Position numbers and translations under genes: made by a program. This document shows, piece by piece, positions 5,001 to 32,479 of a DNA stretch of 64,000 nucleotides. The notes below the pieces were generated by a model. That model ran no database searches. It was given only the letters and a program-made list of their open reading frames with translations, and was not told where the DNA came from. Position 1 is the stretch's first letter; each line of letters opens with the position of its first letter. Source of the DNA: Algoriphagus sp. (GTDB taxonomy: Bacteria > Bacteroidota > Bacteroidia > Cytophagales > Cyclobacteriaceae); contig JAQSDM010000012.1 of NCBI GenBank assembly GCA_029945945.1, positions 386,112 to 450,111 on the forward strand. Reading direction: 5' to 3'.

Positions 5001-6410
5001 TTCAACCCCAACCAAAGCAAGAATTGGGAGGTACACGATTAGGATAATGATTTCCCCAAATGCTGCTGAATTCCTGATTTTGCTAGCCGATTGGTATACT
5101 TCCTCATCCATTTCGCTCTGCGTGAGTTTTCTACCCAGCTTTAATAAACCAAGGTGATGCAATGTGGCTTCAACAATGATCACTGCCCCATCCACGATTA
5201 GACCAAAGTCAATTGCCCCAAGACTCATTAGATTACCCGAAACGCCAAATAGGTTCATCATCCCAAAGGCAAAAACCAAGGCAAGTGGAATAACAGAGGC
5301 TACAATTAATCCAGCTCGGAGATTTCCCAAGAGCAGCAAAAGGACAAAAATCACGATCAAAGCTCCTTCAGTCAGGTTTGTAGTCACTGTTCCAATAGCG
5401 GTATTGATCAATTTAGTCCGATCCAGAAAAGGCTCGATGGTAATTCCTTCAGGTAAAGTTTTGCTTATCTCTGCGATTCGCTTTTTTACTTTTTCAACGA
5501 CCTCAGCAGAATTTTCCCCTTTCAGCATCATCACGATAGCACTCACCACTTCCCCTTCACCATCACGAGTAGTTGCTCCATACCGAACGGCACTACCTAG
5601 TTGAACTTTGGCTACATCTTTTATGAGGACTGGAATTCCATCTTCATTGCTATTGACAAGCATGTTTCGGATGTCGTCCAAGTCGCCCACCAAGCCTTCA
5701 CTTCGGATAAAATAGGCGCTGAGGTTTTTTTCAATGTAAGCTCCCCCAGTATTCTCGTTGTTTTCTTCCAATGCCCGGAAAATATCGGCAATGGAAACGT
5801 CCATCGCTTTTAACCTGTCCGGGTCTATAGCGATTTCATATTGCTTGAGGTATCCACCAAAGCTGCTTACATCCGCTACTCCTGGAGTACCGAGCAACTG
5901 CCTTCGCACAATCCAGTCCTGAATCGTACGCAATTCACGGGCATCATATTGATCTTCATAACCCTTCTCTGTTCCCACTACATATTGGTAGATTTCTCCA
6001 AGTCCGGTAGTGATGGGAGCCATACCCGGCTGACCTACTCCTGGTGGAATTTGTGCTTGCACATCGGCCAGGCGTTCGTTTACCTGCTGACGGGCCCAAT
6101 ACACGTCCACATTTTCTTTGAACACGATAGTCACGACTGACAGGCCAAAGCGGGAGAAAGAACGAATCTCGTCCAGTTCCGGTATGGTAGCCATGGTGAT
6201 CTCGATAGGAAATGTGATTAAACGTTCTACTTCCTCAGCGGCAAGCGAAGGGGAAGCGGTAATAACCTGTACCTGATTATTGGTAATATCCGGTACGGCA
6301 TCAATGGGAAGTCTCGTAAGTGAGTAACCTCCCCAAATGACCAAGCCTAGCGTAAGCAGGCCAATGATCAGTTTGTTCTTAACTGAAAATAGAATGATTT
6401 TGTCCAGCAT
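2034..6410 (-). CDS. CusA/CzcA-type heavy-metal RND pump fused to a TolC-like outer-membrane factor
   Basis: A 1458-aa proton-driven metal exporter. Residues 1 to about 1045 are a complete HME-family RND permease: the first membrane helix (IIGLLTLGLVIWGGYSL), periplasmic porter loops, and a TM4 region carrying the family signature (DFGLIVDGAVIIVE). After the last pump helix (PILYYYFERG) comes a further hydrophobic stretch ending in KAKAQ. This is followed by a roughly 400-residue OEP/TolC-type domain (SLDEAIQVAIQNNPTLKAADL) with long coiled coils. Typical RND pumps are about 1040 residues, so the extra part is a fused CusC-like channel; I recall such fusions as common in Bacteroidota. The ATG at 6410 was chosen because it precedes the usual short N-terminal helix (MLDKIILFSVKNKL); the open frame extends 33 codons further without protein-like sequence. 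Confidence 0.92.
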   Translation of the reverse strand: MLDKIILFSVKNKLIIGLLTLGLVIWGGYSLTRLPIDAVPDITNNQVQVITASPSLAAEEVERLITFPIEITMATIPELDEIRSFSRFGLSVVTIVFKENVDVYWARQQVNERLADVQAQIPPGVGQPGMAPITTGLGEIYQYVVGTEKGYEDQYDARELRTIQDWIVRRQLLGTPGVADVSSFGGYLKQYEIAIDPDRLKAMDVSIADIFRALEENNENTGGAYIEKNLSAYFIRSEGLVGDLDDIRNMLVNSNEDGIPVLIKDVAKVQLGSAVRYGATTRDGEGEVVSAIVMMLKGENSAEVVEKVKKRIAEISKTLPEGITIEPFLDRTKLINTAIGTVTTNLTEGALIVIFVLLLLLGNLRAGLIVASVIPLALVFAFGMMNLFGVSGNLMSLGAIDFGLIVDGAVIIVEATLHHLGLLKLGRKLTQSEMDEEVYQSASKIRNSAAFGEIIILIVYLPILALVGVEGKMFGPMAKTVSFAILGAFILSLTYVPMMSALFLSKKTEYKPNISDKIMAFFHRLYDPAIRWTMHKRPLILSLALGFFLVSLWVFSNMGGEFIPTLEEGDFAVETRVITGSSLQNTIQATTQAEKILLEQFPEVNQVVSKIGAGEIPTDPMPVEAADMMVILKDKSEWVSAPNREELANKMAEALEVIPGVTFGFQQPIQMRFNELMTGVRQDVAVKIYGEDLNELSEYAEQIGRLTSGVEGAEDLYIEEVTGVPQIVINYKRDQLAKYGLSVRDVNRSVQAAFAGASAGLVYENERRFDLVVRLDKTNREDVESVRNLFISRKDGHQIPLYQVAEVEIKDGPYQIQRDDTRRRIIVGFNVRNRDVESVVTELKQKIDESVVFAPGYTVTYGGQFENLIEARERLSFAVPLALLLIFVLLYFTFGSFKQGILIFTAIPLSAIGGIFALWLRDLPFSISAGVGFIALFGVAVLNGIVLISEFNHLKKEGVSDIFERIYKGTSVRLRPVIMTAAVASLGFLPMALSQSGGAEVQRPLATVVIGGLITATFLTLVVLPILYYYFERGIKVNPGAVVPLLVIGLLCIQIPKAKAQDSLVSYQSLDEAIQVAIQNNPTLKAADLQTQQERELKGASWNLSKTNFSLTHGQYNSIYNNDNQFNISQSMEFPTVYANQKKLAKARVEASEWRKSATQNELIQQVKSTWYMLWFEKSKRELLLEQDSIYLRFVRAANLRYETGETNLLEKATAESQVAEVEALLLQNLSDIEIYRTQLQTLLDLDSIGDIAMGYLEAREINVLLDTQGIANNPTLAWFRQQIEVAEKEKSVEKARFLPDLSAGYFNQSLNGSNQDLDGNPVNFTSSDRFTGFQVGLAIPIFGAKAQGSTVKAAELKKQESEARLQAVTNELQGRLSSLIQQYQKFQTSLAYYEKNALPQAELILKQAQKGFENGEIGYVEYIQGLSRALTVQFNYLEILNQYNQTIIQIEFISGVQ

Positions 6411-6556
6411 TTTTTTGCATTTATTAATCTGATTTTTTGGATAGACAGGGCAGAAAGCCCTTGAATTTGGAGCTGGGGGAGTAAATTGAAAATGCAGGAT
6501 CACCTCCAAGCAACAGCTTGGAAATAATAACTATTTCAATTTAAATGTCCGGAAAA

Positions 6557-16898: not shown

Positions 16899-17096
16899 TT
16901 ACAAATTTTGGCTAGACTTGATAAGATCTTTCGGGTCCACCCCCAATATTCTGGCAATTTCAAAAAGCACCTCCAATCGTGGTTGGTGCCGATTTTGGAC
17001 ATAGCCATTGACCATGTTGTAGCTTTTGCCGAGTTGTTCGGCAAGCCAAGTTTGGGTAATCCCTTTTTCCTCAAGCACTTCTTTGATCCGGTTCAT
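16899..17096 (-). CDS. XRE-family HTH regulator of the type III restriction locus
   Basis: A 65-aa protein consisting almost only of a Cro/C1-type helix-turn-helix: ITQTWLAEQLGKSYNMVNGY is the HTH core, with NRHQPRLEVLFEIARILGVD after it. It lies 21 bp upstream of mod on the same strand and is the first gene of the operon. By size and place it may act like a controller protein timing restriction and modification; this role is inferred. Confidence 0.85.
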   Translation of the reverse strand: MNRIKEVLEEKGITQTWLAEQLGKSYNMVNGYVQNRHQPRLEVLFEIARILGVDPKDLIKSSQNL

Positions 17097-17171
17097 TCCT
17101 GAAATAAGACAGAAACTAAAAATAGAGAATTATTGGGATTATCTCGTTTTTTGAGATAGAGTTGAAAGAAA

Positions 17172-17191
17172 AAAAGCCCTGTCGGGCTTTT
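17172..17191 (-). terminator. Rho-independent terminator after the 73-aa gene
   Basis: A perfect 8-bp stem (AAAAGCCC/GGGCTTTT) with a TGTC loop on the plus strand. On the minus strand it is followed by a T run. It lies between the 73-aa gene and the HTH-mod-RhuM-res operon and would separate the two transcripts. Confidence 0.8.
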
Positions 17192-17192
17192 C

Positions 17193-17414
17193 TCAAGATT
17201 CTTCAGAATCTGATTCTTTGACGGAAACATAAACCGTGTGGGTTTTTCCGTACTGATCAGGTTCTTTTAGCTTGGCGACATTGAATTTGACGAAGGTTTC
17301 TCCCTCGTACTCGAAGGTGTGGTTTTGAAGCTCGGCCATATTCAGGCTTACTTCCACAATGTCCATGTTTTCGACTTGCTTTCCTTTTCCGATGTACTTT
17401 TTTGAGAATGCCAT
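17193..17414 (-). CDS. Small conserved-looking protein of unknown function
   Basis: A 73-aa protein from ATG at 17414, ending in an acidic tail (KESDSEES). No signal peptide or membrane helix is seen. The charged, beta-rich composition (FEYEGETFVKFNVAKL) suggests a small folded cytoplasmic protein. I recall similar small proteins in Bacteroidota mobile elements but cannot name a family. A strong terminator follows the stop. The 288 bp upstream (17415-17702) contain no supported gene. Confidence 0.6.
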   Translation of the reverse strand: MAFSKKYIGKGKQVENMDIVEVSLNMAELQNHTFEYEGETFVKFNVAKLKEPDQYGKTHTVYVSVKESDSEES

Positions 17415-17702
17415 AGTATTTTGGTTTTAGTTAAAATTTATGCAGGTCATTTAGGATGGCCGGGAAAGTGAGGAAAATTAGAATTTAAAAACTGGGAGGT
17501 AGTCCGTAGGAAACCCTGTTTTTAGGAAATTCTGCTGGAAGCCCCAATTTTTTGAAACTGACAGGCCGTCCGACCTTTGTGCATACAATTGTATAAAACC
17601 GGACTAGGGCACTCAAAGACAAGGAGAAAAGCAAAAAAGACAAGATCAAATGACTTGGATGTTAAGTGACCTTGTCTAATTCTGATTAAGACTTGGAAAA
17701 TA

Positions 17703-18110
17703 TTAAAGATTTAGAACATTCAGTATCCAACCCCAGAAAGCACGACTCTTTTTCTCGATTCGTTTGATTTCAGGCTCTGGTTCAGTTTTATAGTATTTGA
17801 TTTTGACTTCTGCATCATATTCCCGAACATTCAAGATTTGATCCTTCGACCAAGATTCAGACCATTCAACCTTTCCATCCTTTATCCAATAATGTGATTG
17901 ACAATCGAAACTCCAATTGCCAATTGAAGGATAAAGGGAGATACTTTTTCCATTAAAAGTAAGTTTCCAATCAGCAGGTGAAATTGGAGTAACGACCTTA
18001 TTGCGGCATCCACACACGCAAAGGTGTATGGCTGTGCAATATTCAATAGAGATATAGATTATTCCTTCTTCAAGGTGATCGGGAATGAATTCTAGAAATC
18101 TATGCTGCAT
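17703..18110 (-). CDS. DUF6527-like Cys-rich protein of ubiquitin-like operon
   Basis: A 135-aa protein from the ATG at 18110 ([13 protein letters not shown]); ATGs at 18119 and 18140 are alternatives. It has a cluster CVCGC preceded by another Cys, then [30 protein letters not shown] and [12 protein letters not shown]. This is the pattern I remember for DUF6527, a family encoded beside ThiF/E1-like and multi-ubiquitin genes. The Cys set (EYC, LCVCGC, FDC) plus the His of SHYW could form a zinc site. The start overlaps the E1-like gene by 11 bp, so expression is coupled. Its activity is unknown; it could be the missing ligase, protease or adaptor of the system. Confidence 0.78.
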
Positions 18111-19275
18111 GATCGTCATTGATGATTTTAGAGACTTCAATTGTGTAGGTTGAATGATGCTCGTTTTCTAAATCAGCATACACTCCAAACTCCTTTTTCC
18201 AACGAATCACAGCCAGAATCGCGTTCAATGCATTAAGATCACTAATTTGGATATTTGACGCATATTCATTGTCTCCAATTTCCTCTGGAAATATCCGAGT
18301 GTCTAAATGATCAATCTTTCTAGAACTTCCCGCAGTTACTCTAACTGCCCCTATAAGCTCTCCATTAACTTCTGTTACCCCTAGTCCAACATCCACAAAT
18401 GGAATCCTATTTTGAGCCAAGTAGTCCGTGATCATTTTCCTTGCTGCATTATTGTCAATAGAAACAAATACAAAAGACATACCGTCCAACTCAGTAAGAT
18501 CTCCCTTTTTGACATTGTACTCATGGACTTGGACACCCTTATGCATTTCTGAATAAATTCCATAGTAGTAGTTCACTTTAGATAAACTTTCGCTAAGAAT
18601 CTCTAAAGAAGCTGCTCCAGGTGATCGGAACGCATTGTGCTGGTCGAAAGTGTCACCATCGTAGATGTGAATTTCGGAAACTTGAGTTTTAGCAACTTGG
18701 TCCAAGATATAAGCCCCAGTACCTCCAAGGCCAATAATCGCTATTTTTTGACCTTTAAGTTTCTCATTGATGTACTCAATTTTTGCTCTGCTTGAGTTGG
18801 TATCAATGTATCTGAATGGAGTTTCGTTTTCCAAGTCTGGAATCACTGTGAAAGTTTTTTCCGTGACTTTGTCATCCAAATACTTGGCCGGTGCCGAAAT
18901 GATATCTGCGTAGCGCTTCACCTTTTCGTAATGATTAGGATATCCAGCTGGGGGCTTATTTGAAAACGATCGATCAATAACCAAAGTCGTGGTTAATCTT
19001 TTTTGATTGACCGAATGCTGGATTTCGGAAATCACACTGCCATCAATGTTGCAAGGATTTTCACCGGCAAAATCAATTACATGCGTATGCGGGGCCGCAA
19101 CATTCCCTCCTACCAAAGTGATTTGGCTGACGAGGATTCCATACTTTATCTCTTTATTAGAGTTTAAATATGGAATGTGGTGGACAATTAAATGTCCACC
19201 TTGAATTTCCACCTGATATCCTTCGTCGCGAAGGCGCTTTAAGTGCGGATTACGATTTATCAGTTGCTGTGACAT
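18100..19275 (-). CDS. E1-like ThiF-family adenylyltransferase with N-terminal DUF6791-like domain
   Basis: A 391-aa protein from the ATG at 19275. Residues about 1-150 form an extra domain with [25 protein letters not shown] and [12 protein letters not shown], resembling DUF6791 as I recall it. Residues about 175-391 are the ThiF/E1 Rossmann domain: nucleotide loop IGLGGTGAY (GLGGTG at 182-187), [17 protein letters not shown], and [10 protein letters not shown]1 enzymes activate the C-terminus of a ubiquitin-like protein as an adenylate. The only cysteine in the chain is C75 in the N-terminal domain, so a normal E1 catalytic cysteine is absent. The start overlaps the Ub-like gene by 26 bp. 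An E2-like job for the N-terminal domain is inferred. Confidence 0.85.
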
Positions 19276-19942
19276 TGAAGACCATTTTATTTTTGACACG
19301 CACAACTGAAGTTTTCACCATAGTCCCTTCGGGCTTTGGCTCATGACCCCTAAAATAGGTAACTGTGTAACCTATGTTCGGATTCGGATCATACTTACCA
19401 AACGCTAGCTCAATTATTTGCTCAAAAGAGATTGTGGGTTTATCCCAGCTTTTCTCCTGAGCGTTCACGATGATCGTAAATTTAGTCTGAGCAGGTTTGG
19501 TAATAAACTTTTCCTTACCGGGTCGAGCCAGATCAACAACTACATCATTAGTTATCAAGTCATCTTCCCAGCCCTCCTTTATGTCCAAGTAAATGTCAAC
19601 ATCCATAGGAATGTTACCCAGTTCTCTGATTTGAACGCCTCGGATAAATTGCTTAAACCAAATAAATGCCTTACCATCGATCGAGAATTGAAGCTTTTTC
19701 TTGACAAAGAAATTCTCAATTTCAGGTCTTGCAAGATTGACTGTTTTTTCATTTTCAATCAGCTCATCCTTAAAAGGACGAAGGATTGAAAGAAAAAGCT
19801 CTGTATCCGGAGGAATTCCAGCTAATTCTTTAAGCTGTAAACCTGTCATAAATTGATTGAAGGTTTCGTATTGTTTACCTTCAATGATGAGCTTTAAGCT
19901 CGGCTGTTTTGAGGGATGTACCCCCTCCTCAAATTTTTTCAT
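19250..19942 (-). CDS. Multi-ubiquitin protein with three tandem Ub-like domains
   Basis: A 230-aa protein made of three beta-grasp-like repeats. Repeats 1 and 2 (about residues 15-85 and 86-150) are clearly related: GLQLKELAGIP matches GVQIRELGNIP, and VNLARPEIENF matches VDLARPGKEKF. Repeat 3 (about 155-230, FTIIVNAQEKSWDKP to VFNVTA) matches the Multiubiquitin family start and end. The chain ends TATDKS without a di-glycine, so conjugation through a classical C-terminus would need processing or another route. It is the first gene of a three-gene operon with an E1-like protein and a DUF6527-like protein. The start ATG at 19942 has little Shine-Dalgarno. Confidence 0.88.
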   Translation of the reverse strand: MKKFEEGVHPSKQPSLKLIIEGKQYETFNQFMTGLQLKELAGIPPDTELFLSILRPFKDELIENEKTVNLARPEIENFFVKKKLQFSIDGKAFIWFKQFIRGVQIRELGNIPMDVDIYLDIKEGWEDDLITNDVVVDLARPGKEKFITKPAQTKFTIIVNAQEKSWDKPTISFEQIIELAFGKYDPNPNIGYTVTYFRGHEPKPEGTMVKTSVVRVKNKMVFNVTATDKS

Positions 19943-20150
19943 GATTATGAAATTTTAGTGATTAAAACCTTTCACTTTCTCCAGCTTATCATTTCAGCTG
20001 GGAAAGATTTTAAAGGGCATTGCCCTAAATGCTGTCTATTCGTTGCAGTTAAAATTGATTTTAAGTACTGCCAGACACATGGACACCATGTGTTAAAAAT
20101 CACCTCAGACTTGCATTTATCACCTAAAGGAGGTACGTTTGAATTGCACA

Positions 20151-20158
20151 ACAAATAT
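20151..20158 (-). promoter_or_regulatory. Possible -7 element of the ubiquitin-like operon
   Basis: On the minus strand TATATTTG fits the Bacteroidota -7 consensus TAnnTTTG. It lies about 210 bp upstream of the multi-ubiquitin start, and no well-spaced -33 TTTG was found, so support is weak. Confidence 0.25.
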
Positions 20159-20201
20159 ACCGACAGCCTTGCAAGGGCCGAGGTTTCCTTTAAGGATATG
20201 A

Positions 20202-20227
20202 AGCCAGGTAATTTTTGCCTGGTTTTT
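20202..20227 (+). terminator. Plus-strand terminator-like hairpin between operons
   Basis: AAGCCAGG pairs with CCTGGTTT around a short T-rich loop and is followed by a T run on the plus strand. All neighbouring genes run on the minus strand, so this hairpin would end a plus-strand transcript, perhaps a small RNA. The rest of 19943-20308 has no supported gene. Confidence 0.4.
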
Positions 20228-20308
20228 TATTTCAATTAGTTTTCAGTATTGTTTCACTCTCATAACTCATGATCTTGATTCTACTTTGATTTTCTCTGTA
20301 GTAAATTT

Positions 20309-22789
20309 TTAAACCCTTGGAACAATTCGAGCAGCAGTTTTAATATCAACAGCTTGAACTCCATATGATTGTAGCATTTGTCTCATGTCATTAAATACCG
20401 GTTTCTCGTTATTAGGATCTGAAATCGTTAAGATTGCTGTGAATGGTACGCCTTCAATTGGAAGTGTTACACCATCCCTAGACAAATACTCTACATTTAA
20501 TTTCCATTCAGTTGAGGGACCGACTCCTCTAGAAAATGTTTTTTCATAAACTTTTACAGGACTCCACTTGAAAGAATGTTCAATTTGATCTTTCTCATAT
20601 GAACTTCCATCTCCATCTTCTGGTGTATAAATCGCATTTAACCTACCTTTATAGGTGCCGTCATTATGCATCTGTCTTAGAGCTGCATCAATATTTATTC
20701 GGACAAACTCAGATCCAAACCTATAATCAAAGCTTGGAGTACTTACTATGGTTAGTTTTGCATGTCCGAAACACTTGCCATCGCGTACAAGACTTGAAGG
20801 CCAAGAAAATTTAAAACTCATTTTATGACCTCTTATAACTCGGTTTGCAAATACCAATGTAATTGCATGAGGGCTTCCATTTAAAATCCTTTCAGAATCA
20901 TTAGGTATCCCAAATCCAACCAAATGTTTTGTTATATTTCTTAAATTTTTATCGTTGAGAGACTCCGGTAGCATTGCATGGTGAATTCCTAGAGCAATTA
21001 GCGTTTCCCTGGAAACAAAACCTTCAATAAAATGGTCAATGCTAGCTAAAGTCTTTGCTACATTTGGCGCAGCATAACTGGTTCCACAACCATCAATAAT
21101 TTTACTTTTTGGATCCAAAGACAATAATCCATGTCCCAGGACAGGGTCAATAGTCCCAGCCCCTCCAATATGAGCAAAATCAGGTTTAAGTCCGACTCGC
21201 AAGCCAGGTCCACGGCAACTATAATTAGATAGTGCATATGGAACAATACCTTCAAGGTGAGGGGGATTTAAGGCCGAAACACTGATATTTCTACAGCTTT
21301 CTGCTGGCTTTTTTATAGAATCATTTCTAGAAGATGCTAAAATTGTTAATGCATCGAAATGATCGGAAGGCCACTCCTTTCTGATGTCTCGAGGATGAGT
21401 ATTACCAGCAGAAATAACAAAAACAACATCATTCTCTTCTGCAATCTTATCTAAAATCTGTGCTGGAACACTGTATCCAGTTGTTGACGCATGTTCATCT
21501 ATATTTAAACTGAAGTTAAATATTCGAACCCCAGTTCTCTCTTTCAATTCCTGAACAGCTGTCTCAAGTTCATTAAAAAATTCCAAGGGTTTTGAATAGT
21601 ATAAGCTGTAACTATCTCGGCGAGGTAAGATATCAAGATCAATTATTTTACAACCATCAATTTCTCTGCAAATTGCCTGACCATTTAATTGTTGTCCAAA
21701 AATTGCAAGTCCAGCAATAAAAGTTCCGTGATTCTCGTCTTTATCAGGACTGCTAATTAACCCCCACCGTTCTATGACCCAATTCCCAAAAACATCAGAC
21801 ACTCCTCCATCTACTATACACAATTTAGGATATGAACCATTATCTTCAGGGGCAGGAATGGCAAAATCTTCACCTTTTACCTTAGACTTAGTCGTTAAAC
21901 TTTGTGAGATGACTGGAGGAAGAGTCACTTTTTTTACCAATGGATGATTACCTAGGTACTCTAACAATTGATTATGTCTTTCTAAGTTGAGATCAATAGA
22001 TTTTCTCTCTCCCGATTTACCTGCATTTGATGATGAGTAAAACTGTATTACTGGGGCTGAATCGTTATTTTCTAATTTAACTCCAAACACAACCGATGCT
22101 CCTTGGCCTGTGGTAATTCTGGACACAAATATTCCTCTACCTAAATTTGCTAAACCATCAAAAAAACTATTAAAGAGCTCAAATTTATATTTACTTAGTA
22201 AATCCCAATCTTGCCTTGGCGGTGGGGCTTCGAACAATTCCACTAAATACGATCCACCAGTTTGAGGATTAGATAGCCATCTAACAGCCTCTTTAACTGA
22301 AAAATTTCTCTTATCACTGGAAGAATACATTACTATTTCTTCAATTGCACCAATTTCACTCCTTAATCTGGATGGATTAGGCTCATTCTTGCCATTTTTT
22401 TCTTTGTACCTGGTTTCAGTTTCAGCTTGTTCAAATTTTTTGTTTATTTTTTCTACACTCTCAGGAGTAAGTTCTACAAATAGCTCTCCTAAGTCTCCAC
22501 CACCTATTACTGGTGCCACATCTCTTTTAAATATCTGAGAAGTCGGCCGATGACTTTTTGCAAGTGCAGCCTGCTTAAGTGACACTTTTGCGTAAGAAAC
22601 CTTAGCATAACTGTTAATCAATTGCATGCTTCTAATTTCATTGAGCTGTTTTTGGATGTTATTTCGATGCTCGACAAACCCAATATCATTTCCAGCGAAA
22701 AAGTCTTTTGAACCACCACCGCCATTATTTTCTAACGCCTCTATAAAGGAATCACTATTTAAAACGATTTGAACAGGACTGTTTGACAT
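20309..22789 (-). CDS. ietS: Subtilisin-like (S8) serine protease, IetS type
   Basis: An 826-aa intracellular-type S8 protease (no signal peptide). The catalytic residues are all visible: Asp327 in IVDGG, His354 in NHGTFIAG, Asn463 in SAGN and Ser571 in GTSYAAP. About 300 residues precede the protease domain and about 200 beta-rich residues follow it. A short in-frame repeat YAKVS-YAKVS lies at residues 61-70. It starts 3 bp after the AAA ATPase gene. AAA ATPase plus subtilisin pairs are known as IetAS, named from a plasmid stability/incompatibility pair and later listed among anti-phage systems (from memory). The symbol is given by this family match. Confidence 0.82.
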   Translation of the reverse strand: MSNSPVQIVLNSDSFIEALENNGGGGSKDFFAGNDIGFVEHRNNIQKQLNEIRSMQLINSYAKVSYAKVSLKQAALAKSHRPTSQIFKRDVAPVIGGGDLGELFVELTPESVEKINKKFEQAETETRYKEKNGKNEPNPSRLRSEIGAIEEIVMYSSSDKRNFSVKEAVRWLSNPQTGGSYLVELFEAPPPRQDWDLLSKYKFELFNSFFDGLANLGRGIFVSRITTGQGASVVFGVKLENNDSAPVIQFYSSSNAGKSGERKSIDLNLERHNQLLEYLGNHPLVKKVTLPPVISQSLTTKSKVKGEDFAIPAPEDNGSYPKLCIVDGGVSDVFGNWVIERWGLISSPDKDENHGTFIAGLAIFGQQLNGQAICREIDGCKIIDLDILPRRDSYSLYYSKPLEFFNELETAVQELKERTGVRIFNFSLNIDEHASTTGYSVPAQILDKIAEENDVVFVISAGNTHPRDIRKEWPSDHFDALTILASSRNDSIKKPAESCRNISVSALNPPHLEGIVPYALSNYSCRGPGLRVGLKPDFAHIGGAGTIDPVLGHGLLSLDPKSKIIDGCGTSYAAPNVAKTLASIDHFIEGFVSRETLIALGIHHAMLPESLNDKNLRNITKHLVGFGIPNDSERILNGSPHAITLVFANRVIRGHKMSFKFSWPSSLVRDGKCFGHAKLTIVSTPSFDYRFGSEFVRINIDAALRQMHNDGTYKGRLNAIYTPEDGDGSSYEKDQIEHSFKWSPVKVYEKTFSRGVGPSTEWKLNVEYLSRDGVTLPIEGVPFTAILTISDPNNEKPVFNDMRQMLQSYGVQAVDIKTAARIVPRV

Positions 22790-22792
22790 AAC

Positions 22793-23980
22793 TTATATTT
22801 TTTCAGAATCTTTAAATTTTGAAAGATGTTTACTCAAATTTGACGGAGTCATTCCGAAAAGGGATGCTATATCTTTCTGTTTAAAAGAGAAAACTTTGTC
22901 ATTAAGCAGCAAGCCCATAAAGTCCTCATCTCTATGAAGCATTATATTTCTCTTTTTGGTATCAACTCTACCAGAGTTTAGTAAGGCAAATTGTTTCATT
23001 ACCTCTACGATATTGCTTCCCTTTTCTATGACAAATGCCCGTTTCAGCCATTTAGAAAGCATTTCTGCATCAGCCCCAGACGAACCTTCTAGACACCATG
23101 CCAGAAACTTAATTTCACTTTCATTGAATTCTAATGGTGAAGTGAAGTGCTTAAGAAGTCGAATAATAACCTCCAGAGAAGGATTTGGAATTTCGATTTG
23201 TATGTCAAACCTTCTCCAAATAGCAGGATCTAAAAGACTTTCATGATTGGTTACCCCAATAGTAAAACCTTTTTCATGACGCGAATCAAGACTCTGTAAC
23301 AACGTATTAACTACCCTTTTCACTTCACCAACCTCTTGGGGATCATTTCGGAGTTTAGCTATAGCATCAAACTCGTCAAGAAGTAAAATACATTTATACC
23401 TGTTGGCAAATGCGAACAAATTTCCAATGTTTCGTGAAGTCGTACCAAGGTAGGATGACATCAAACCTTCAAGTCTTGCAAGAACAACTGGTATCCCAAT
23501 CTGTCTAGCAATCCATTTGGCTAGGTGGGTTTTTCCTGTTCCAGGTGCCCCATATATCAAACATGAACTTGCGGGTGTTGCATTTATTTCCAGAAGCTCA
23601 TCAAACTTTTTCCATTCATTTACTATAGTTTGAATAGCAAGCTGAATGTTCTCATCAAATATTGGAGCCTTTTCTGGAAGATCATTTGGAAAAAAAATCT
23701 CAGCCAAAGGAGTTGAGGTTTCTTTATCCACGGGCATAGTGGTTTTGTGAGTCAATTCCTCACCTTTTAAGGCTATAAAAGATCTCTGAATCTTACTAGG
23801 TGACATATCGAGTGCTGATTCCGAACTTTCCATCAATGCATCTAATGATTTCGCCTCCTTAGTGAAGCCGTCTTTTTCAAGACTTTCCTTAAGTCTTTTG
23901 ATTTGATGCACAATAGCTTCATTTGGTGTAGCTAATGCCGACCTGCTTAATGCCTGAATGATGTTGAAGTATTTTAACAT
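22793..23980 (-). CDS. ietA: AAA+ ATPase, IetA type, with C-terminal HTH
   Basis: About 395 aa from an ATG near 23980; the frame is open 16 codons further to a TTG at 24028. After a helical N-terminal region comes one AAA+ module: Walker A GAPGTGKT (near residue 145), Walker B CILLLDEFD, sensor GVTNHE and an Arg-finger block WRRFD. The last 30 residues (FSFKQKDIASLFGMTPSNLS then KHLSKF) look like a DNA-binding helix-turn-helix. It is the upstream partner of the S8 protease and probably controls its access to substrates. The AT-rich 117 bp upstream would hold the promoter. Confidence 0.83.
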   Translation of the reverse strand: MLKYFNIIQALSRSALATPNEAIVHQIKRLKESLEKDGFTKEAKSLDALMESSESALDMSPSKIQRSFIALKGEELTHKTTMPVDKETSTPLAEIFFPNDLPEKAPIFDENIQLAIQTIVNEWKKFDELLEINATPASSCLIYGAPGTGKTHLAKWIARQIGIPVVLARLEGLMSSYLGTTSRNIGNLFAFANRYKCILLLDEFDAIAKLRNDPQEVGEVKRVVNTLLQSLDSRHEKGFTIGVTNHESLLDPAIWRRFDIQIEIPNPSLEVIIRLLKHFTSPLEFNESEIKFLAWCLEGSSGADAEMLSKWLKRAFVIEKGSNIVEVMKQFALLNSGRVDTKKRNIMLHRDEDFMGLLLNDKVFSFKQKDIASLFGMTPSNLSKHLSKFKDSEKI

Positions 23981-24145
23981 AAAATCATTTTCGAATACTT
24001 TTTCCAAATATAAAGTTTTTATTTCCAATTAAAGAAATTTATTTCCGTTTTTTTGATAAAATTTCCATATACGAATAATCCAGCTTACTAGCCCATAATC
24101 ACATTTTGATCGCCTAAATTGTACATTTGAAATTGATTTAATGGG

Positions 24146-25014: not shown

Positions 25015-27273
25015 TTAATAATTCAACATCAATCCCACTCCAAATCCCATATCACTATCGTAATGAGTTCTGAATCCGATGTTTTTACCTGCTATATAGT
25101 TCAATCCGACCATGTATTCTTTGTCAGTATTAACCATAAAGTTTGCTCTCAATCTTTTTGATACAGGTATATCCTCTCGTCTTAATTGGACCCTGACGTT
25201 GCCATCTTGGTAAACTTCGGTTTGTAAAATAAAAAGCATAGGTAAGGTATAAGCAACTCCTACACTGAATTGAGCGCGGTTGTCTTTCGTGCTTTTCTGT
25301 CCAAAGATGTTTTGCTCCACTTCGCCGTGTCCTAGTTTCCTGTAACGCCAATCAAAACCAACAAAAGGCATTAACCATTGCATTCTTCCAAGATATCTGC
25401 CTACGTGCGTTTCACTTTCATAACCGTGCTCATCATTGTACCCTAGTCGCCATTCAGAGCCAAAACTCCAACGCGTATTTTGCAACATTGCCATTCCGTC
25501 ATTTCCATTGGTGGCAAAGTCATTTTGAGCCATAAGGTGTAATTGGTTGCTCTCTTTTTGCAATTTTTTGTAGGCCCAATTTTTGTCCGGCAACAGGGGA
25601 TTTGGCTCTTGTTTTTCATAACTGAAAACCCGGTTCATGCCTGCCATCATATGATAGAGTATATGGCAATGAAAGAACCAATCACCCTCAACATTGGCCT
25701 CAAATTCAATGACGTTGGTTTCCATTGGCATAATATCCATTACGTTTTTGAGCGGAGCGTACTCCCCTTGTCCGTTGATCACCCTAAAATCATGTCCATG
25801 CAAATGCATTGGGTGGCGCATCATCGAATTATTGAAAAGGGTAATTCGCACGATTTCCCCTTTTTTTATCAATATTTTATCGGATTCTGAAAGCACCTTA
25901 TTATCCATACTCCACACATAGCGGTTCATATTGCCTGTCAGTTCAAAGCGCATTTCCCTAACGGGTGCACTAGCAGGTAATGTGGTTTTAGTTGGGGATT
26001 TGAGCATTGCATAATTGAGCGTTACAATGTCCGTATTGCTAGAACCGTTACTGGAATGATCCATATTTTTCATATCCATTTCGGGCATTTCATCCATTTT
26101 CATCGGTTTCTTTTCGCCGGAAATTTCAGGATACATGACCGTGTTCATATCCATTTGTTGCAGGCTCATATTCATCCCCATATCGTTCATGTCGCCGTTC
26201 ATTTTCATCATATCGTTCATCATCTTCATGCCTTCAAAATATTTCAATTTGGGCAATGGACTGACCAATTGTTTGATGCCCGAACCGATGTAAATGGAAG
26301 CTGATTTGGTGCGGTCCTCCGCTGTAGCAAGAAACTCATAGGAAGTATTTTCAGCGGGAATAGTTACAATGACATCATAGGTTTCCGACACGCCAATAAT
26401 AAGCCTGTCGACTTCCACAGGATCTACATCATTGCCGTCATTGGCTACAACGGTCATTTTGCCGGCTGCATAGGTGAGCCAAAAGTAGGAGGAAGCACCG
26501 CCGTTTGAGATTTGCAATCGTACTCTATCACCTGCTTTGAATTGGGATAATTGGCTTTCATTTTTGCCGTTAATTAGAAATCTATCATAATAAATATCAC
26601 TCACGTCCATTGCCAACATTCGTTTCCATTCGTTGGCAACTTTGGTTTTAAAATGACCTTCCCTTATAGCCTCTGCATAACTTTGAGTGGTTCCTTTTTT
26701 AATAGCGAACCAATCAGAAGCATTGTGCAACATCCGATGCACATTTTCAGGTTTGTAGTCTGTCCACTCACTTAGAATAATAGGGACAGTCGGAATATCG
26801 TCAATCCCTGCCCTTAATCCTGGGTCATCCTCCCGCTTTTTTAGTATCATGGAGCCATACATTCCTATTTGCTCTTGCAGTCCGCTATGGCTATGATACC
26901 AATGTGTGCCATGTTGGATTATTGGAAATGTGTATTTGTGTGTCGTGCCGGGTTCTATCGGCATTTGCGTTAGAAAAGGAACACCATCTTCCTTATTGGG
27001 CAAAAACAAACCGTGCCAATGCAAGGATGTGCTTTCTTTGAGTTGGTTATGTACGTAAATTTCTGCTGTGTCGCCCTCCGTAAATGTCAGTGTAGGCATT
27101 GGAATTTGTCCGTTTACGGCAATGGCCCGTTTTTCTTTGCCTGAAAAATTGACAAGGGTATCTTTGACATACAAGTCATAACGCACTACTTTTTGAGCGT
27201 ATAGGTTTGTATTAAGTAATATTAAAACAACTATTAGTTGTGATGCCTTAGAAATATTTTTATTAACCTTCAT
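25015..27273 (-). CDS. CopA-type multicopper oxidase fused to a CopB-like beta-barrel domain
   Basis: A 752-aa exported protein with a signal peptide ending at LYAQ. The cupredoxin copper motifs are complete: HWHG (85-88), HWYHSH (124-129), HPMHLHGHDF and HCHILYHMMAGM near residues 480-545. Between domains 2 and 3 lies a Met/Asp-rich stretch (MNDMMKMNGDMNDMGMNM and MKMDEMPEMDMKNMDH) like that of CopA/PcoA copper-binding oxidases. After about residue 580 the chain becomes an outer-membrane-like beta domain (GSEWRLGYNDEHGYE, VGLNYIAGKN, GFGVGLMLNY) that resembles CopB. It oxidises Cu(I) or binds copper outside the cytoplasm. It is coupled to the upstream ATPase (stop and start nearly touch). 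Confidence 0.9.
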   Translation of the reverse strand: MKVNKNISKASQLIVVLILLNTNLYAQKVVRYDLYVKDTLVNFSGKEKRAIAVNGQIPMPTLTFTEGDTAEIYVHNQLKESTSLHWHGLFLPNKEDGVPFLTQMPIEPGTTHKYTFPIIQHGTHWYHSHSGLQEQIGMYGSMILKKREDDPGLRAGIDDIPTVPIILSEWTDYKPENVHRMLHNASDWFAIKKGTTQSYAEAIREGHFKTKVANEWKRMLAMDVSDIYYDRFLINGKNESQLSQFKAGDRVRLQISNGGASSYFWLTYAAGKMTVVANDGNDVDPVEVDRLIIGVSETYDVIVTIPAENTSYEFLATAEDRTKSASIYIGSGIKQLVSPLPKLKYFEGMKMMNDMMKMNGDMNDMGMNMSLQQMDMNTVMYPEISGEKKPMKMDEMPEMDMKNMDHSSNGSSNTDIVTLNYAMLKSPTKTTLPASAPVREMRFELTGNMNRYVWSMDNKVLSESDKILIKKGEIVRITLFNNSMMRHPMHLHGHDFRVINGQGEYAPLKNVMDIMPMETNVIEFEANVEGDWFFHCHILYHMMAGMNRVFSYEKQEPNPLLPDKNWAYKKLQKESNQLHLMAQNDFATNGNDGMAMLQNTRWSFGSEWRLGYNDEHGYESETHVGRYLGRMQWLMPFVGFDWRYRKLGHGEVEQNIFGQKSTKDNRAQFSVGVAYTLPMLFILQTEVYQDGNVRVQLRREDIPVSKRLRANFMVNTDKEYMVGLNYIAGKNIGFRTHYDSDMGFGVGLMLNY

Positions 27274-27274
27274 T

Positions 27275-29392
27275 TTAAGATTTATTATTATTCAATTTTA
27301 ATAGACTTGCATTGATTGCAACCACAATGGTGCTCACGCTCATTAACACCGCACCCATTGAGGGGCTTAAAACAAAATTTGGGTAAAGTACACCTGCTGC
27401 AAGTGGAATCGCTAAAACATTATAGCCAACTGCCCAAACTAGGTTTTGTACCATTTTCTTATAGGTGCGTTTTCCGAAATCTATCATTTTTGCTACATCT
27501 CTCGGGTCGCTATTTACCAGGATGATATCGGCAGTTTCAGCCGCCACATCAGTACCTGAACCCACAGCTATCCCCACATCTGCCTGGGCCAACGCAGGTG
27601 CATCATTGACCCCATCACCTGTCATCGCTACAATTTCGCCTTTGGCTTGGAATTCTTTAATTTTCTCTTGCTTGTTGTGCGGGAGCACGTTGGCAAAAAA
27701 ACCGTCCATTTTCAACTCATTGCTCACTGCTGCGGCAATTTTTTCATTATCACCAGTAAGTAAGTATGATTTGATATTCATATCCTTCAAATCATCAATT
27801 GCCTGTTGTGAACCTTCTCGAATGGTATCTGCCAAAGTAATAATACCTACTACTTCATCGTCAATCAGCAAAAAATTCACGGTTTCAGCATCTTGATTGA
27901 TGTCCTTAGGAAGGTCAGGTATGGCTAAAGTTTTATCATTGAAATAATTCGGCCCGGCTGCTGCAACAGACTTACCTTTAACGGTTCCCGACACACCGAT
28001 TCCCTGCATCAACTGAAAGTTCTCTGATTTCCACAACTCGAGATTTTTGTCTTTTAGAGTTTGGAGTACACCTTTTGCAATATGGTGTTCTGAATTTTGC
28101 TGGACTGCTGCTGCATATTGAATGATATCATCAGCAGTATATTTATCTGTTAACGGAATAGTTTTCTGAACCCTGTGAGATCCTTCAGTAAGTGTTCCGG
28201 TTTTGTCAAAAATGATTACCGATAATTTCCTTGTGGTCTCAAAAGCAGTCCTATTCCTGATTAAGAGGCCATTTGTAGCAGAAAGGGTTGTAGAGATTGC
28301 AACCACTAAAGGGATGGCAACACCCAAAGCGTGTGGGCACGCCGTGACCATCACAGTTACCATTCTTTCTAATGCAAAGGATAAATCTCCACTATTGCTG
28401 TACCAAAAAATAAAAGTTCCCACGCCAACAGCGATAGCAATGAAGGTGAGCCATTTGGCAACCCTATCTGCAAGGTTTTGGGTGTTGGATTTTGCTGCCT
28501 GTGCATCCTGCACCAGATTGATTACCTTATTGAGGTAGCTGTCTTTGCCTACTCCAGTAGCCTTAATCTTTAAAACCCCATCCCCATTTATCGAGCCTGC
28601 AATGACTTTTGCATCTACTTGCTTTTTCACAGGTACACTTTCGCCCGTAAGCATACTTTCATTGACAGAAGAAGAACCTTCCAATACCAATCCATCAGCG
28701 GCAATTTTCTCTCCTGGCTTAATGATGACAGTATCGTCATTCATAAGCTCTTCCAACTTTATTTTAACTGCTTCACCATTGCGCTCAATAGTTACTTCAT
28801 TGGGCAGTAAAGCCACCAAAGACTGTAATGCTTTGGAGGCAGCCATCTGGGAACGCATCTCCAGCCAATGCCCCAAGAGCATAATGACTATCAAGGTGGC
28901 AAGCTCCCAAAAGAAATCCATTCCTGGAAATCCAAGAGCTACAGCCATACTGTAGAAGTAGGCCACTGATATAGCCAATGCGACCAAAGTCATCATACCA
29001 ATGGCTTTGGATTTTATTTCGCCAACCATTCCCTTCAGAAATGGCATCCCCCCATAAATATAAATGGCTGTTCCCAATGCCATTAAAACGTATCTGTCTC
29101 CAGGGAAGGAAATGCTGAATCCTAACCATTGCTGTATCATATGAGATAGCAGCAAAATGGGAACCGTAAGAATTAAACTTACCCAAAACCTCTGGATGAA
29201 GTCACTGGTATGATGACCTTCGTGTTTGTCAAAATCAGCTTTTGAATGTTCCGCCGGGTGCTTTGAAGATTTGGAATGGTGAGAATGTTTGGCTTTTTCT
29301 CCAAAAGGCACCAAGTCCATCCCACAAATAGGACATTTTCCCGGTTCGTCTTTGAGCACTTGAAGGTGCATCGGACAAGTATATTTTCTCAC
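27275..29392 (-). CDS. CopB-type copper P1B-ATPase
   Basis: A 705-aa inner-membrane exporter. It begins with a heavy-metal-binding zinc-ribbon-like motif (CPMH...CPICGMDLVPF, residues 6-30), then a His-rich stretch (HSHHSKSSKHPAEHS). The membrane metal motif is CPH (352-354), the P1B-3 (CopB) type, rather than CPC. TGES (249-252), phosphorylation site DKTGT (396-400) and GDGVNDAP are intact. The start is GTG at 29392, in a 4-bp overlap with the DUF2911 gene. The His/Met-rich context suggests Cu (possibly Cu(II) or Ag) export to the periplasm. Confidence 0.92.
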   Translation of the reverse strand: MRKYTCPMHLQVLKDEPGKCPICGMDLVPFGEKAKHSHHSKSSKHPAEHSKADFDKHEGHHTSDFIQRFWVSLILTVPILLLSHMIQQWLGFSISFPGDRYVLMALGTAIYIYGGMPFLKGMVGEIKSKAIGMMTLVALAISVAYFYSMAVALGFPGMDFFWELATLIVIMLLGHWLEMRSQMAASKALQSLVALLPNEVTIERNGEAVKIKLEELMNDDTVIIKPGEKIAADGLVLEGSSSVNESMLTGESVPVKKQVDAKVIAGSINGDGVLKIKATGVGKDSYLNKVINLVQDAQAAKSNTQNLADRVAKWLTFIAIAVGVGTFIFWYSNSGDLSFALERMVTVMVTACPHALGVAIPLVVAISTTLSATNGLLIRNRTAFETTRKLSVIIFDKTGTLTEGSHRVQKTIPLTDKYTADDIIQYAAAVQQNSEHHIAKGVLQTLKDKNLELWKSENFQLMQGIGVSGTVKGKSVAAAGPNYFNDKTLAIPDLPKDINQDAETVNFLLIDDEVVGIITLADTIREGSQQAIDDLKDMNIKSYLLTGDNEKIAAAVSNELKMDGFFANVLPHNKQEKIKEFQAKGEIVAMTGDGVNDAPALAQADVGIAVGSGTDVAAETADIILVNSDPRDVAKMIDFGKRTYKKMVQNLVWAVGYNVLAIPLAAGVLYPNFVLSPSMGAVLMSVSTIVVAINASLLKLNNNKS

Positions 29393-29946
29393 TTTTCAGC
29401 GTTTTTGAAATCAAACGAAACGCTCACAAACTCCCAACTTATCTCTATTTTGCCTTGGTTTTCATTTGTTTTAACTACCTGATATTGTAAGGATTCAATG
29501 AGATCATCATTCTTTTTTGGTTTAACTTTTATCCTGATCAGATCGTTTTCCGAATTGTAATCATCCGCCAAATGCATATCCCAATCTTTACTAAGTATAA
29601 GTATCCACTCCCCCTCATTTGGAATGGTAAAAAACCCATACTTTCCTTTAGCAATTAGTTGATTGTTGATTGTTACATCCTCCGAAAATTCAATCCACGT
29701 AGCTTTGTGCGCACCAGTCGCCCAAACTTGTCCATAAGCGACCAGACCATTCCATATAACTCGCCCCCTTACGCTTGGCGAACCATAGTCTATATGTATA
29801 TGGTTGTCTCCAATCATTGCCATAGCGGATGTGCGCGGACTTTTGGATTTTACAGTAGTATCTTTCTCTGTCTGATGATGTTCGTGTTGAGCTACCGCTA
29901 TTAATGGTGAGAAAGCGATTAGGAATAGTATTAATAAGTTTTTCAT
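29389..29946 (-). CDS. DUF2911 exported protein
   Basis: A 185-aa protein with signal peptide (LLILFLIAFSPLIAVAQ). The DUF2911 hallmark is clear: IDYGSPSVRGRVIWNGLV followed by GQVWATGAHKATWIEFS, and KGKYGFFTIPNEGEWILIL. The family is widespread in Bacteroidota and its function is not known. It heads the DUF2911-CopB-oxidase transcript, so a periplasmic role in copper handling is plausible by association. The HEHHQ after the signal peptide could bind metal. Confidence 0.85.
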   Translation of the reverse strand: MKNLLILFLIAFSPLIAVAQHEHHQTEKDTTVKSKSPRTSAMAMIGDNHIHIDYGSPSVRGRVIWNGLVAYGQVWATGAHKATWIEFSEDVTINNQLIAKGKYGFFTIPNEGEWILILSKDWDMHLADDYNSENDLIRIKVKPKKNDDLIESLQYQVVKTNENQGKIEISWEFVSVSFDFKNAEK

Positions 29947-30053
29947 TTATATTTTAGTTTAATTTTTCAAGGTTATGCTATTTATTATCCTCTAGGTAAC
30001 CTAAATAGATTTACAATTATTTTTATAATCCAGGTTTGGATTGATTTTCAAAA

Positions 30054-30080
30054 AAGTCAATTAGCATTCAATTTTGACTT
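30054..30080 (-). terminator. Terminator between the two copper transcripts
   Basis: AAGTCAA pairs with TTGACTT around a 13-nt loop. On the minus strand a T run follows. It lies just past the stop of the CueO-like oxidase gene and would separate it from the DUF2911-CopB-oxidase unit. Confidence 0.55.
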
Positions 30081-30093
30081 CAAAATTTGTGTT

Positions 30094-31542
30094 TTATATG
30101 ACTTCAAAGTTTAGCATCATCCCATCATCCTCATGTTCAAGATTATGGCAATGAACTACAAACTTACCTTTATGCTCAAATTTCAGGATTACTAGTACCT
30201 TTTCCTTTGGTGCTACCAGAACAGTATCCTTCCATCCACTTTCTTGTGGCAAAATCGTGTTCCTGCCTCCTGTGCGTGACAATATTTGAAAATGAACACC
30301 ATGGACGTGCATAGGATGGGCTTCATCACCGGCAGTATTATCAAATTCCCAAATCTCAGTAGATCCTAAATTCACGATTTCATCAATCCGGTCAGAGTCA
30401 AACACTTTTCCGTTGATTTGATGCATACCGCGACTGTTGTGGCCCATTCTCATGGTTAATTTAAAAGGTCTCGTTTTAGTTGCGCCAGATAGTTTAGTAA
30501 ATGGCAGGAGCGTAGTAGGTAAAGCAAAGTTGTCTTTTTCAGCATTAGTCACATTGAAGCTCATAATTTTATAGCCCTGTTCTCCCTGTGCTTCACCCAT
30601 TCCGGAGAATTCCTCATTTTCGAGGTATATCATTTCACCCAATTTTGCACCGGAAAAATCGACCAAAACATCAACTCTCTCACCCGGGCCAAGCAGCAGG
30701 GTTTTCATGCTTCTAAGTTGTGGCAGCATGCTACCGTCTGAACCAATTACATAAAAATCTGCTCCATTGCTTATAGCTAGATTATAAATTCTGGCAGTAG
30801 ATCCGTTGAGAATTCTAAATCGGTAATAGCGCGTTGAAACTTCAAGGAAAGGTTTGTTGGTTCCGTTCACTAAAATGGTTTCGCCCATAAAGCCTGTCAT
30901 AACTTCATCCATAGATGGGTTATATTGGATAGTGCCATTCGAATTAAGGCGCTTGTCCTGGATTATGAGAGGAATCTCATGATCACCACTAGGCAGGTTA
31001 AGCGCTTTTTCTTCTTCGCTTTCTACGATAAACAATCCGGCCAATCCTTCGGTGACTTGCTTGCCTGTAAGGCCATGCAGATGCGGATGATACCAGTTTG
31101 TTCCGGCCTGTTGGTTTACGGTAAATTGAAAATTAAAGGAGTCGTTGGGCATTATCATATGGTCCGGGTGACCATCCATTGCGGCTGGGATCACTAAACC
31201 ATGCCAATGAATATTGGTATGTTCTGACAGTTTATTTGTAAAATTAAGGTTTACATTCTGATCTTTTTGGACTCTAATCGTGGGGCCCAACAGTCCAATT
31301 CCGTATCCCAATACCGATACTTCCCCACCATTTCCCAAGGATTCCATACCACCTTGAGCACTCAGAGCTGAAGTACCATTGATTGTTTCAGGGATCTTCA
31401 ATGGATTATTAAATACACCGTCCACAACATTTGGAGCTTCTCCTCCCATGCCATGATCCATGCATGAAGTCAAAAGACTTGGTCCTGCCGCAATGGCAAC
31501 TGTACCCAATCCCATTCTCTTTAAAAATTCACTTCTGTTCAT
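30094..31542 (-). CDS. CueO/SufI-like multicopper oxidase lipoprotein
   Basis: A 482-aa cupredoxin oxidase from the ATG at 31542 (MNRSEFLKRMGLG); a TTG 12 codons upstream is an alternative but would overlap the previous gene. The N-terminus has a hydrophobic signal and a Cys (SLLTSC), so it is probably a lipoprotein. Copper ligands are complete: HWHGLVIP, HPHLHG, HPMHVHGVHF and HCHNLEHEDDGMM. CueO-type enzymes oxidise Cu(I) to the less toxic Cu(II) in the periplasm. It follows the HMA-DUF3347 gene by about 20 bp and is likely in the same operon. Confidence 0.9.
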   Translation of the reverse strand: MNRSEFLKRMGLGTVAIAAGPSLLTSCMDHGMGGEAPNVVDGVFNNPLKIPETINGTSALSAQGGMESLGNGGEVSVLGYGIGLLGPTIRVQKDQNVNLNFTNKLSEHTNIHWHGLVIPAAMDGHPDHMIMPNDSFNFQFTVNQQAGTNWYHPHLHGLTGKQVTEGLAGLFIVESEEEKALNLPSGDHEIPLIIQDKRLNSNGTIQYNPSMDEVMTGFMGETILVNGTNKPFLEVSTRYYRFRILNGSTARIYNLAISNGADFYVIGSDGSMLPQLRSMKTLLLGPGERVDVLVDFSGAKLGEMIYLENEEFSGMGEAQGEQGYKIMSFNVTNAEKDNFALPTTLLPFTKLSGATKTRPFKLTMRMGHNSRGMHQINGKVFDSDRIDEIVNLGSTEIWEFDNTAGDEAHPMHVHGVHFQILSRTGGRNTILPQESGWKDTVLVAPKEKVLVILKFEHKGKFVVHCHNLEHEDDGMMLNFEVI

Positions 31543-31561
31543 TTCAGCTACAACATTGGGA

Positions 31562-32479
31562 TTAATTAATTTTTTCAACGGTACTTCCGCAAGTCATCAT
31601 CATTGACCCATAATATGGATTCTTGATAGAGCTTTCTTTACTAAGCCAGTTTGCTCCTTTCCCATTGTTGTACATGGGACATTTTTGGTAATAAACGGTT
31701 GGTCCTGCTGTAGAAAGCTTCATCAACTCATACATAGGCTGTGAAAGACCTGAAAAATAAACGCGTTGATCATCAGCATCGGTGGACTCGCTGATTTTTT
31801 CTGCATTTTCGCTTAATGCTTTCATTTTCACCATCCACGCTTCATGGGTTTTTGGTTCCAGTTCGCCCATTTTCACTTTGCCGATTGCAGTTACGAGAGC
31901 CTTTGCTGCAGTGGATGCTGACTTCCCATCTGATTGCACCAAGGCATCTTTTAAATCAAAGTATCGGTCGAAAACAGGCTGAAGCTCACCGGCATTTTGC
32001 ATCTGAATGTTTTCTGAGGGTTTTTCCCCATTTTTCATCCCCATTTCCACGCCGTGGTTGGCATGGCTTTCCATTTTTACGGGCTGTTCGGAATGTTTTT
32101 CCATTTTCATACTCGAGTTTGGCATGATGGTTTCTTTTTTATTTATTCTTTCGTATTGACAACATTCAGAAAGCATTGCATACGCTTTATCTGGCGCAAG
32201 AAACTGGTCGCTATCGTAACCTGCCAATGCAATGCGCTTCAAGATCTCATCTGGATTGGTCAAATTTGCATCATAGGTGATTGTAGCCATTTTGGTTTCT
32301 TTATTCCAATCAACCTCGGCTTCATTTTTTACATTACCCACTCTTTCAATGGTTACTTCGCACATTTGGCAGTTCCCATAAATTTTTACACTCTCGGTTT
32401 TAGTGTTTTTGATTTGAGCATTTATAGCTGTGGACGATAGCAATGCCATGATTGCCATCAATATTTTTATTGATTTCAT
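31562..32479 (-). CDS. HMA plus DUF3347 copper-binding exported protein
   Basis: A 305-aa protein with signal peptide ending at INAQ. Residues about 28-95 are a heavy-metal-associated domain with GNCQMC (Cys37, Cys40) as the metal pair. A Met/His/Lys linker (SSMKMEKHSEQPVKMESHAN) joins it to a C-terminal DUF3347 domain (LQPVFDRYFDLKDALVQSDG, then YYQKCPMYNNGKGANWLSK and ESSIKNPYYGSMMMTC). DUF3347 is typical of Bacteroidota metal-efflux neighbourhoods. The likely role is to bind copper in the periplasm and pass it to the adjacent oxidase; this is inferred from domains and order. Confidence 0.88.
   Translation of the reverse strand: MKSIKILMAIMALLSSTAINAQIKNTKTESVKIYGNCQMCEVTIERVGNVKNEAEVDWNKETKMATITYDANLTNPDEILKRIALAGYDSDQFLAPDKAYAMLSECCQYERINKKETIMPNSSMKMEKHSEQPVKMESHANHGVEMGMKNGEKPSENIQMQNAGELQPVFDRYFDLKDALVQSDGKSASTAAKALVTAIGKVKMGELEPKTHEAWMVKMKALSENAEKISESTDADDQRVYFSGLSQPMYELMKLSTAGPTVYYQKCPMYNNGKGANWLSKESSIKNPYYGSMMMTCGSTVEKIN

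Follow-up and report, generated by a model that had tools for sequence, protein, structure and literature searches.

A compact three-gene ubiquitin-like operon related to Bub operons, with an adjoining structured RNA candidate, in Algoriphagus sp.

Results

Gene organisation of the locus

We analysed a 64,000-nucleotide stretch of Algoriphagus sp. DNA (contig JAQSDM010000012.1), hereafter the window. It harbours three minus-strand genes that overlap end to end in the order ubiquitin-like protein (Ubl), E1 and DUF6527 (Table 1). An earlier note on this DNA had described these three overlapping frames as a triple ubiquitin-like protein, an E1-like enzyme whose N terminus carries an extra domain and a Cys-rich partner, and all three were found in their places. 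The four families it had named scored above the curated Pfam cut-offs: Multi_ubiq in three stretches of the Ubl (4.8e-33), DUF6791 (PF20590, 4.6e-54) and ThiF (1.2e-13) in the E1, and DUF6527 in the third protein (6.9e-25). Also as claimed, Pfam detected no JAB domain in the trio proteins, and the Ubl has no glycine end.

Table 1. Features of the three-gene operon and its surroundings (positions in the window).
Feature	Position	Strand	Remarks
Ubl (BubA-like)	19250..19942	-	230 aa; three Multi_ubiq domains (PF14452, three stretches)
Multi_ubiq domains in Ubl	~19697-19894, ~19493-19690, ~19259-19480	-	converted from family search
E1-like adenylating enzyme with N-terminal DUF6791	18100..19275	-	391 aa; 26-nt overlap with Ubl gene
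DUF6791 domain of E1	18799..19245	-	probable 'domain X' of Iyer et al.; suggested to be a diverged E2-like domain
ThiF/E1 adenylation core	18382..18765	-	PF00899, residues 171-298; GLGGTG loop, DGD motif
DUF6527 protein (BubE-like by position)	17703..18140	-	145 aa from TTG; PF20137
IetS (S8 peptidase), outside trio	20309..22789	-	PADLOC IetS 1049 bits
IetA (AAA ATPase), outside trio	22793..24028	-	PADLOC IetA 4.8e-161
Structured RNA candidate	20096..20245	+	divergent from operon; branched helices and terminator-like hairpin; model R1 153.4 bits
Intrinsic-terminator-like hairpin and T run	20200..20226	+	3' end of RNA candidate

The most likely start of the E1 is ATG 19275, rather than TTG 19305, because the 26-nt overlap with the Ubl gene, from ATG or GTG, is kept in 32 of 35 loci in the printed DNA, window included (41 nt in the remaining three). 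The 35 loci comprise the window itself, three viral contigs and 31 relatives, which include the close set L009-L013; a Spirosoma locus found later also has an overlap of 26 nt. An alternative start of DUF6527 at an ATG near 18119 is possible.

The trio is located between type III restriction-modification genes and IetAS, and conjugation genes (TraG, TraM and a relaxase) are found farther along. The earlier note had spoken of an island of restriction and IetAS genes; both kinds of gene are present, but cargo close to conjugation genes is the more fitting description of the island. Upstream (5') of the trio is IetAS, and downstream (3') are a 73-aa ORF and a 65-aa HTH protein. In the parts of a recent survey that were available, Cap-type regulators are reported beside 219 and 59 of 544 Bub operons, which is part of them only (PMC13373217), and they are no defining trait of the group. 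None of CapW, CapH with CapP or CapK with CapS adjoins the window trio, and no divergent pair of ImmA/IrrE peptidase and HTH genes was seen beside it.

Several further observations were made in these surroundings. In the window, as in L009-L013, IetAS immediately precedes the trio; in the four of these five that were compared, DNA identity was about 80% over IetAS and 69-74% across the longer pieces of the trio that aligned. IetA-like ATPases adjoin JAB-type Bub operons in L078 and L081. CapH/CapP-like divergent pairs (ImmA/IrrE peptidase plus small HTH) lie 5' of Bub operons of both types (L023, L024, L028, L030-L032, L078 and L082; the HTH partner in L024 is a hypothetical protein). A small DUF2188-annotated gene stands beside Bub operons in L023, L031 and L081, and ORFs of similar appearance were noticed in L009 (~3764-4010) and L119 (just below 6989); in the window, no such gene was noticed in the interval from IetS to the Ubl gene. 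In plasmids L017, L018, L020, L021 and L022 there is a UvrD-helicase gene 5' of the trio, followed in L017 by a PD-(D/E)XK nuclease and accompanied in L022 by a nearby TnsD-type Tn7-like gene. Between IetAS and the genes for conjugation, the window also encodes multicopper oxidases and a P-type ATPase that carries a heavy-metal-binding domain (25015-32479); a 1491-aa ORF at 2034-6509 joins an AcrB-type pump to an outer membrane efflux domain.

Conservation and distribution of the three genes

All three genes were present in the same order at 31 of 31 other loci fetched via the E1 (six loci from five genomes, six genome contigs and 19 plasmid records picked for spread among the 115 that matched). 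DUF6527 is interrupted by an IS256 element in L027 and is present but unannotated in L030. This set was selected by the E1, and a separate search for the three families is the fairer test of linkage: in 296 Bacteroidota genomes, DUF6527 and Multi_ubiq were adjacent at 7/7 DUF6791 sites (6 genomes, own site included). Both searches bear out the view of the earlier note that the three genes belong together. DUF6527 and Multi_ubiq are also found without DUF6791 in this set (14 and 13 genomes respectively, compared to 6 for DUF6791).

DUF6791 was found in only 2 of 59 genomes of the genus, own genome included; the trio is therefore patchy and was probably acquired. The trio stretches of L009-L013, from Pedobacter, Pelobium, Chryseobacterium and Paenimyroides contigs, look nearly identical, which suggests a recent spread on a mobile element.

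The ubiquitin-like protein ends at a fixed serine

Residues 23-230 of the 230-residue Ubl align with the solved 'multi-ubiquitin domain protein' 9cd2 (8.7e-21; 1.1e-47 for the family profile), and this homology supports the beta-grasp folds predicted by the earlier note. The Bil homologue 8u38 was a weak match (0.0011). The Ubl ends in VTATDKS-stop, and in 35 of 35 loci the stop codon directly follows a Ser codon, always TCN. The residue of the overlapping E1 frame beside this serine varies by eye (H, R, L or P), so the serine end needs more than the overlap to explain it. In the six JAB-type Ubls, inspection by eye showed a Gly close to the C terminus, with a short tail or an E2 part after it; mapped onto the Citrobacter relative, the last residue of the construct BubA(155-229) named in a PDB title would be a Gly, compared to Ser in the window. 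It is plausible that loss of JAB was accompanied by a Ubl made ready for use.

An alternative is that no protein is tagged at all, the triple Ubl being structural or filament-forming and the E1 modifying its end, for example with a small group. Bacterial Ubls with three domains reportedly form filaments (Gong et al.), and the homology to 9cd2, the fixed serine end without Gly and the lack of a recognisable E2 gene would all fit. The Citrobacter Bub-type operon, however, has the same three-gene order and there comes with E2-like and JAB-like parts too, and we consider a purely structural Ubl unlikely.

The E1 and its DUF6791 domain

The top solved match of the E1 was Citrobacter BubCD. The E1 proved related to BubD, with other E1s nearly tied in one comparison. 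A Tyr shortly before the last helix is present in six of six BubCD-type E1s (residue 370 in the Citrobacter plasmid protein), and the mutant Y370F is named in a PDB title. By position, Tyr338 of the window E1 would be the equivalent of this Tyr370, although the aligner put the two in separate columns. Bub conjugation reportedly proceeds by oxyester chemistry (Ye et al.).

His65, Ser105, Lys107, Lys118, Tyr122 and Tyr338 were conserved in 30 of 30 E1 sequences, and Pro74 of DUF6791 was invariant in 30 sequences. No invariant Cys was found in the E1 or its DUF6791 domain (21 sequences), nor among the conserved positions of the Ubl (30 sequences). As the Ubl also ends in Ser at 35/35 loci, we infer that conjugation is cysteine-independent. 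An ordinary thioester route would instead use Cys75 of DUF6791 as an E2-like cysteine, with Ser105 being structural; Cys75, beside the invariant Pro74 and 10 residues after the invariant His65, is shared by 25 of 30 sequences, that of the window among them. Five relatives nevertheless have L, H or F at this position and the E1 core lacks a conserved Cys, so that we give the thioester route a low probability.

DUF6791 was predicted to fold in the order helix, four strands, two strands, helix (10-row alignment, mean pLDDT 78.6), an order that would suit an E2-like fold. When its profile was compared with that of six BubB domains, the match was weak (P 0.03, probability 1.7%); the relaxed alignment runs from end to end and places Ser105 near the RWSRH motif of BubB. 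We take this comparison as a lead towards an E2-like DUF6791.

The DUF6527 protein and its viral homologues

DUF6527 residues were surveyed in 72 sequences (30 from trios, 5 viral with an E1, 31 stand-alone viral and 6 JAB-type). Ser72 was present in 69 of 72 (the exceptions are two Cys and one Met), and His83 in 70 of the 71 sequences with a letter there, the sole Met72 sequence also having Arg83. Cys41 and Cys45 were conserved as well, and Ser82 was variable. Probable metal ligands are Cys41, Cys45 and Cys80; the last is replaced by Tyr in 14 stand-alone viral copies, and the same number have His81. A Ser-His pair has been reported for Bub. Judging by conservation, Ser72 and His83 may be this pair, or His83 may be a fourth metal ligand. 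The DUF6527 model had a pLDDT of 89.8, and no solved fold resembling it was found; the profile matched the DUF6527 of the Citrobacter plasmid with a probability of 97%. An unannotated DUF6527-like frame without the middle Cys was seen after the E1 of the Acidiphilium plasmid pACMV5 (L082, ~4313-4650).

In viral contigs, an E1 adjoined DUF6527 at 3 of 38 loci. New here is that DUF6527 stands without E1 or Ubl in the available DNA of the other 35, some of these contigs ending nearby. The 35 stand-alone loci (L042 and L044-L077) come from diverse viral contigs, and their neighbours (115 proteins at 25 loci) include terminase, portal, endolysin and HNH families; the commonest family accounted for 4 of the 115 proteins among the matches listed (the best 25 of 104 for PHROG and 25 of 37 for Pfam). 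Of the 31 distinct stand-alone sequences, 14 form a 'YHAHY' group with other residues in place of the last Cys and Ser82. DUF6527 matched 3 of 50,697 phage records. The stand-alone proteins may be phage deconjugases.

A structured RNA candidate beside the operon

DNA comparisons with L009 and L118 revealed a conserved stretch in the region that separates the Ubl start from the upstream gene. It contains an open plus-strand frame partly common to the window and L009; a coding function was rejected, as L118 has no corresponding frame of at least 45 codons. Terminator-like sites numbered 5 in positions 17000-20500, compared to 3.0 expected.

An RNA model built from five sequences, three of them nearly identical, matched its own genome once and 8 of 32 sources with E ~1e-13 or better (window, L009-L013, L119 and the Runella locus L015). 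The remaining 24 gave no match at E up to 1 (four same-phylum genome loci, L019 and 19 other-phylum loci). With filters off, L121 scored 15.2 bits (E 0.45) and nothing was found in L120, L122, L123, L018 and L019. All 32 sources had been fetched for their Ubl-E1 genes, and so do not by themselves show a linkage of RNA and trio. A blind blastn of the 150 RNA bases against 72,556 plasmids returned one record, from Spirosoma oryzicola (42 bases, E 8e-4). The matching part is the hairpin end; it lies just upstream of the same trio, divergently, and scores 64.1 bits with the model. The Runella copy found only itself by the same blastn.

Over five lineages, in an alignment fitted to the model and thus favouring the structure, 94.0% of pair cells were standard pairs, 13 of 34 pairs had changed on both sides, and the terminator-like helix was 100% paired. 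None of 500 shuffles reached the covariation score, and structures slid along the alignment never exceeded 56.9% paired; a less telling measure is the number of pair types, which 50 of 500 shuffles reached. No Rfam family reached its cut-off in this stretch. A covarying structured RNA beside the trio in five lineages, the Spirosoma copy found blind, is new here. Genome surveys with stricter filters detected nothing beyond the window's own copy, the one positive in 148 family genomes and in 296 phylum genomes; five other genomes among the 296 carry the trio yet yielded no RNA, which therefore marks a subset of the family.

The plus strand is our presumed strand for this RNA. There is a sizeable chance, somewhat short of even, that the candidate has no role of its own and is a mere conserved terminator and promoter region, or a minus-strand leader of the operon. 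The minus strand also folds better than its shuffles in the window (z -3.3, compared to z -2.4 for the branched fold of the plus strand), and in L009 and L015 the hairpin is just behind the upstream gene. Against this, the T run follows the hairpin on the plus strand only, and three further helices covary.

Discussion

Proposed mechanism and its meaning

We propose, with a probability of about 0.6, that the trio is a compact, mobile module for Ubl conjugation and deconjugation, a JAB-less, domain-X member of the 6e/Bub group with an oxyester route, a DUF6527 deconjugase and a linked RNA. The E1 would adenylate the C-terminal carboxylate of the triple-domain Ubl, for which trimming would be unnecessary because the protein already ends at a conserved Ser. 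The Ubl would then pass through oxygen esters, not thioesters, from Tyr338 of the E1 to Ser105 of DUF6791 (both candidates) and on to a target protein, with the DUF6791 domain standing in for the missing E2. DUF6527 would be a metal-binding hydrolase, with Ser72/His83 as candidate pair, that removes or edits conjugates, and the divergently transcribed structured RNA would regulate or serve the operon. As mobile cargo, the module would probably act in phage defence or in a stress response; anti-phage activity of the trio, suspected in the earlier note, is plausible.

A more far-reaching version, which we regard as a long shot, is that a Bacteroidota subset of Bub has a dedicated, uncatalogued structured RNA, which controls Ubl conjugation or has a part in it, and is countered by phages whose stand-alone DUF6527 strips the conjugates. 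If true, this would be a ubiquitin-like defence that is linked to an RNA and opposed by a deconjugase carried by phages. Among ubiquitin-like conjugation systems, Bub-type operons have been little characterised, and the three-gene form shows which parts may be absent (JAB, a recognisable E2 and the Gly end). A few named residues could decide between ester and thioester chemistry by mutation, and the linked RNA and viral DUF6527 genes offer handles on regulation and on the target of the system.

Comparison with known systems

Iyer, Burroughs and Aravind (2006) described, in the accessible part of their survey, a class 6e with a tandem Ubl, an E1 in which a 'domain X' replaces JAB, and a metal-binding protein Y, and named a three-repeat Ubl, M. 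loti mlr6139 (PMC1779556). The earlier note had held that multi-ubiquitin loci are known from surveys and that this exact form has no settled function; the form is already in print as this class 6e. The window trio shares with it the tandem Ubl as first gene, the adjoining ThiF-type E1 with an X domain, and a putative metal-binding third protein, here DUF6527 as last gene. Row 6e accepts either JAB or X, and in the window DUF6791 occupies the JAB place, with no JAB match. From position and gene set, we infer that DUF6791 is 'domain X'. Unlike class 6e as given there, the trio lacks a separate gene for an inactive E2/RWD protein, its host phylum Bacteroidota is absent from row 6e, and no RNA is mentioned for the class in the part available.

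In type II CBASS (Cap2/Cap3) and 6A-MBL systems the E1-type core is common, with weak profile matches to the window E1. Unlike type II CBASS, the window encodes a Ubl, and among the proteins scanned around the trio there was no cyclase (CD-NTase) with Cap2/Cap3, no JAB and no recognisable Cys-type E2. Bil (BilABCD) shares Ubl and E1 with the window, 8u38 being the weak Ubl match. Unlike in Bil, no Cys-type E2, JAB or exposed Gly was found; among the scanned proteins near the trio, Pfam detected neither the JAB peptidase nor the E2 gene of Bil.

The trio also resembles the Citrobacter type of Bub (bacterial ubiquitination-like) operons, with BubA, BubB, BubCD and DUF6527. The Citrobacter plasmid operon has the same Ubl-E1-DUF6527 order, the same E1 core fold and the Tyr before the last helix. 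It differs from the window in its E2-like part and the JAB-like domain on its E1, neither recognisable in the window trio, and in the Gly at residue 229 of the relative where the solved Ubl construct ends. According to the accessible part of a recent paper, relatives of the trio form are now called Bub operons (PMC13373217), and the trio is a relative of these operons, of a kind already described.
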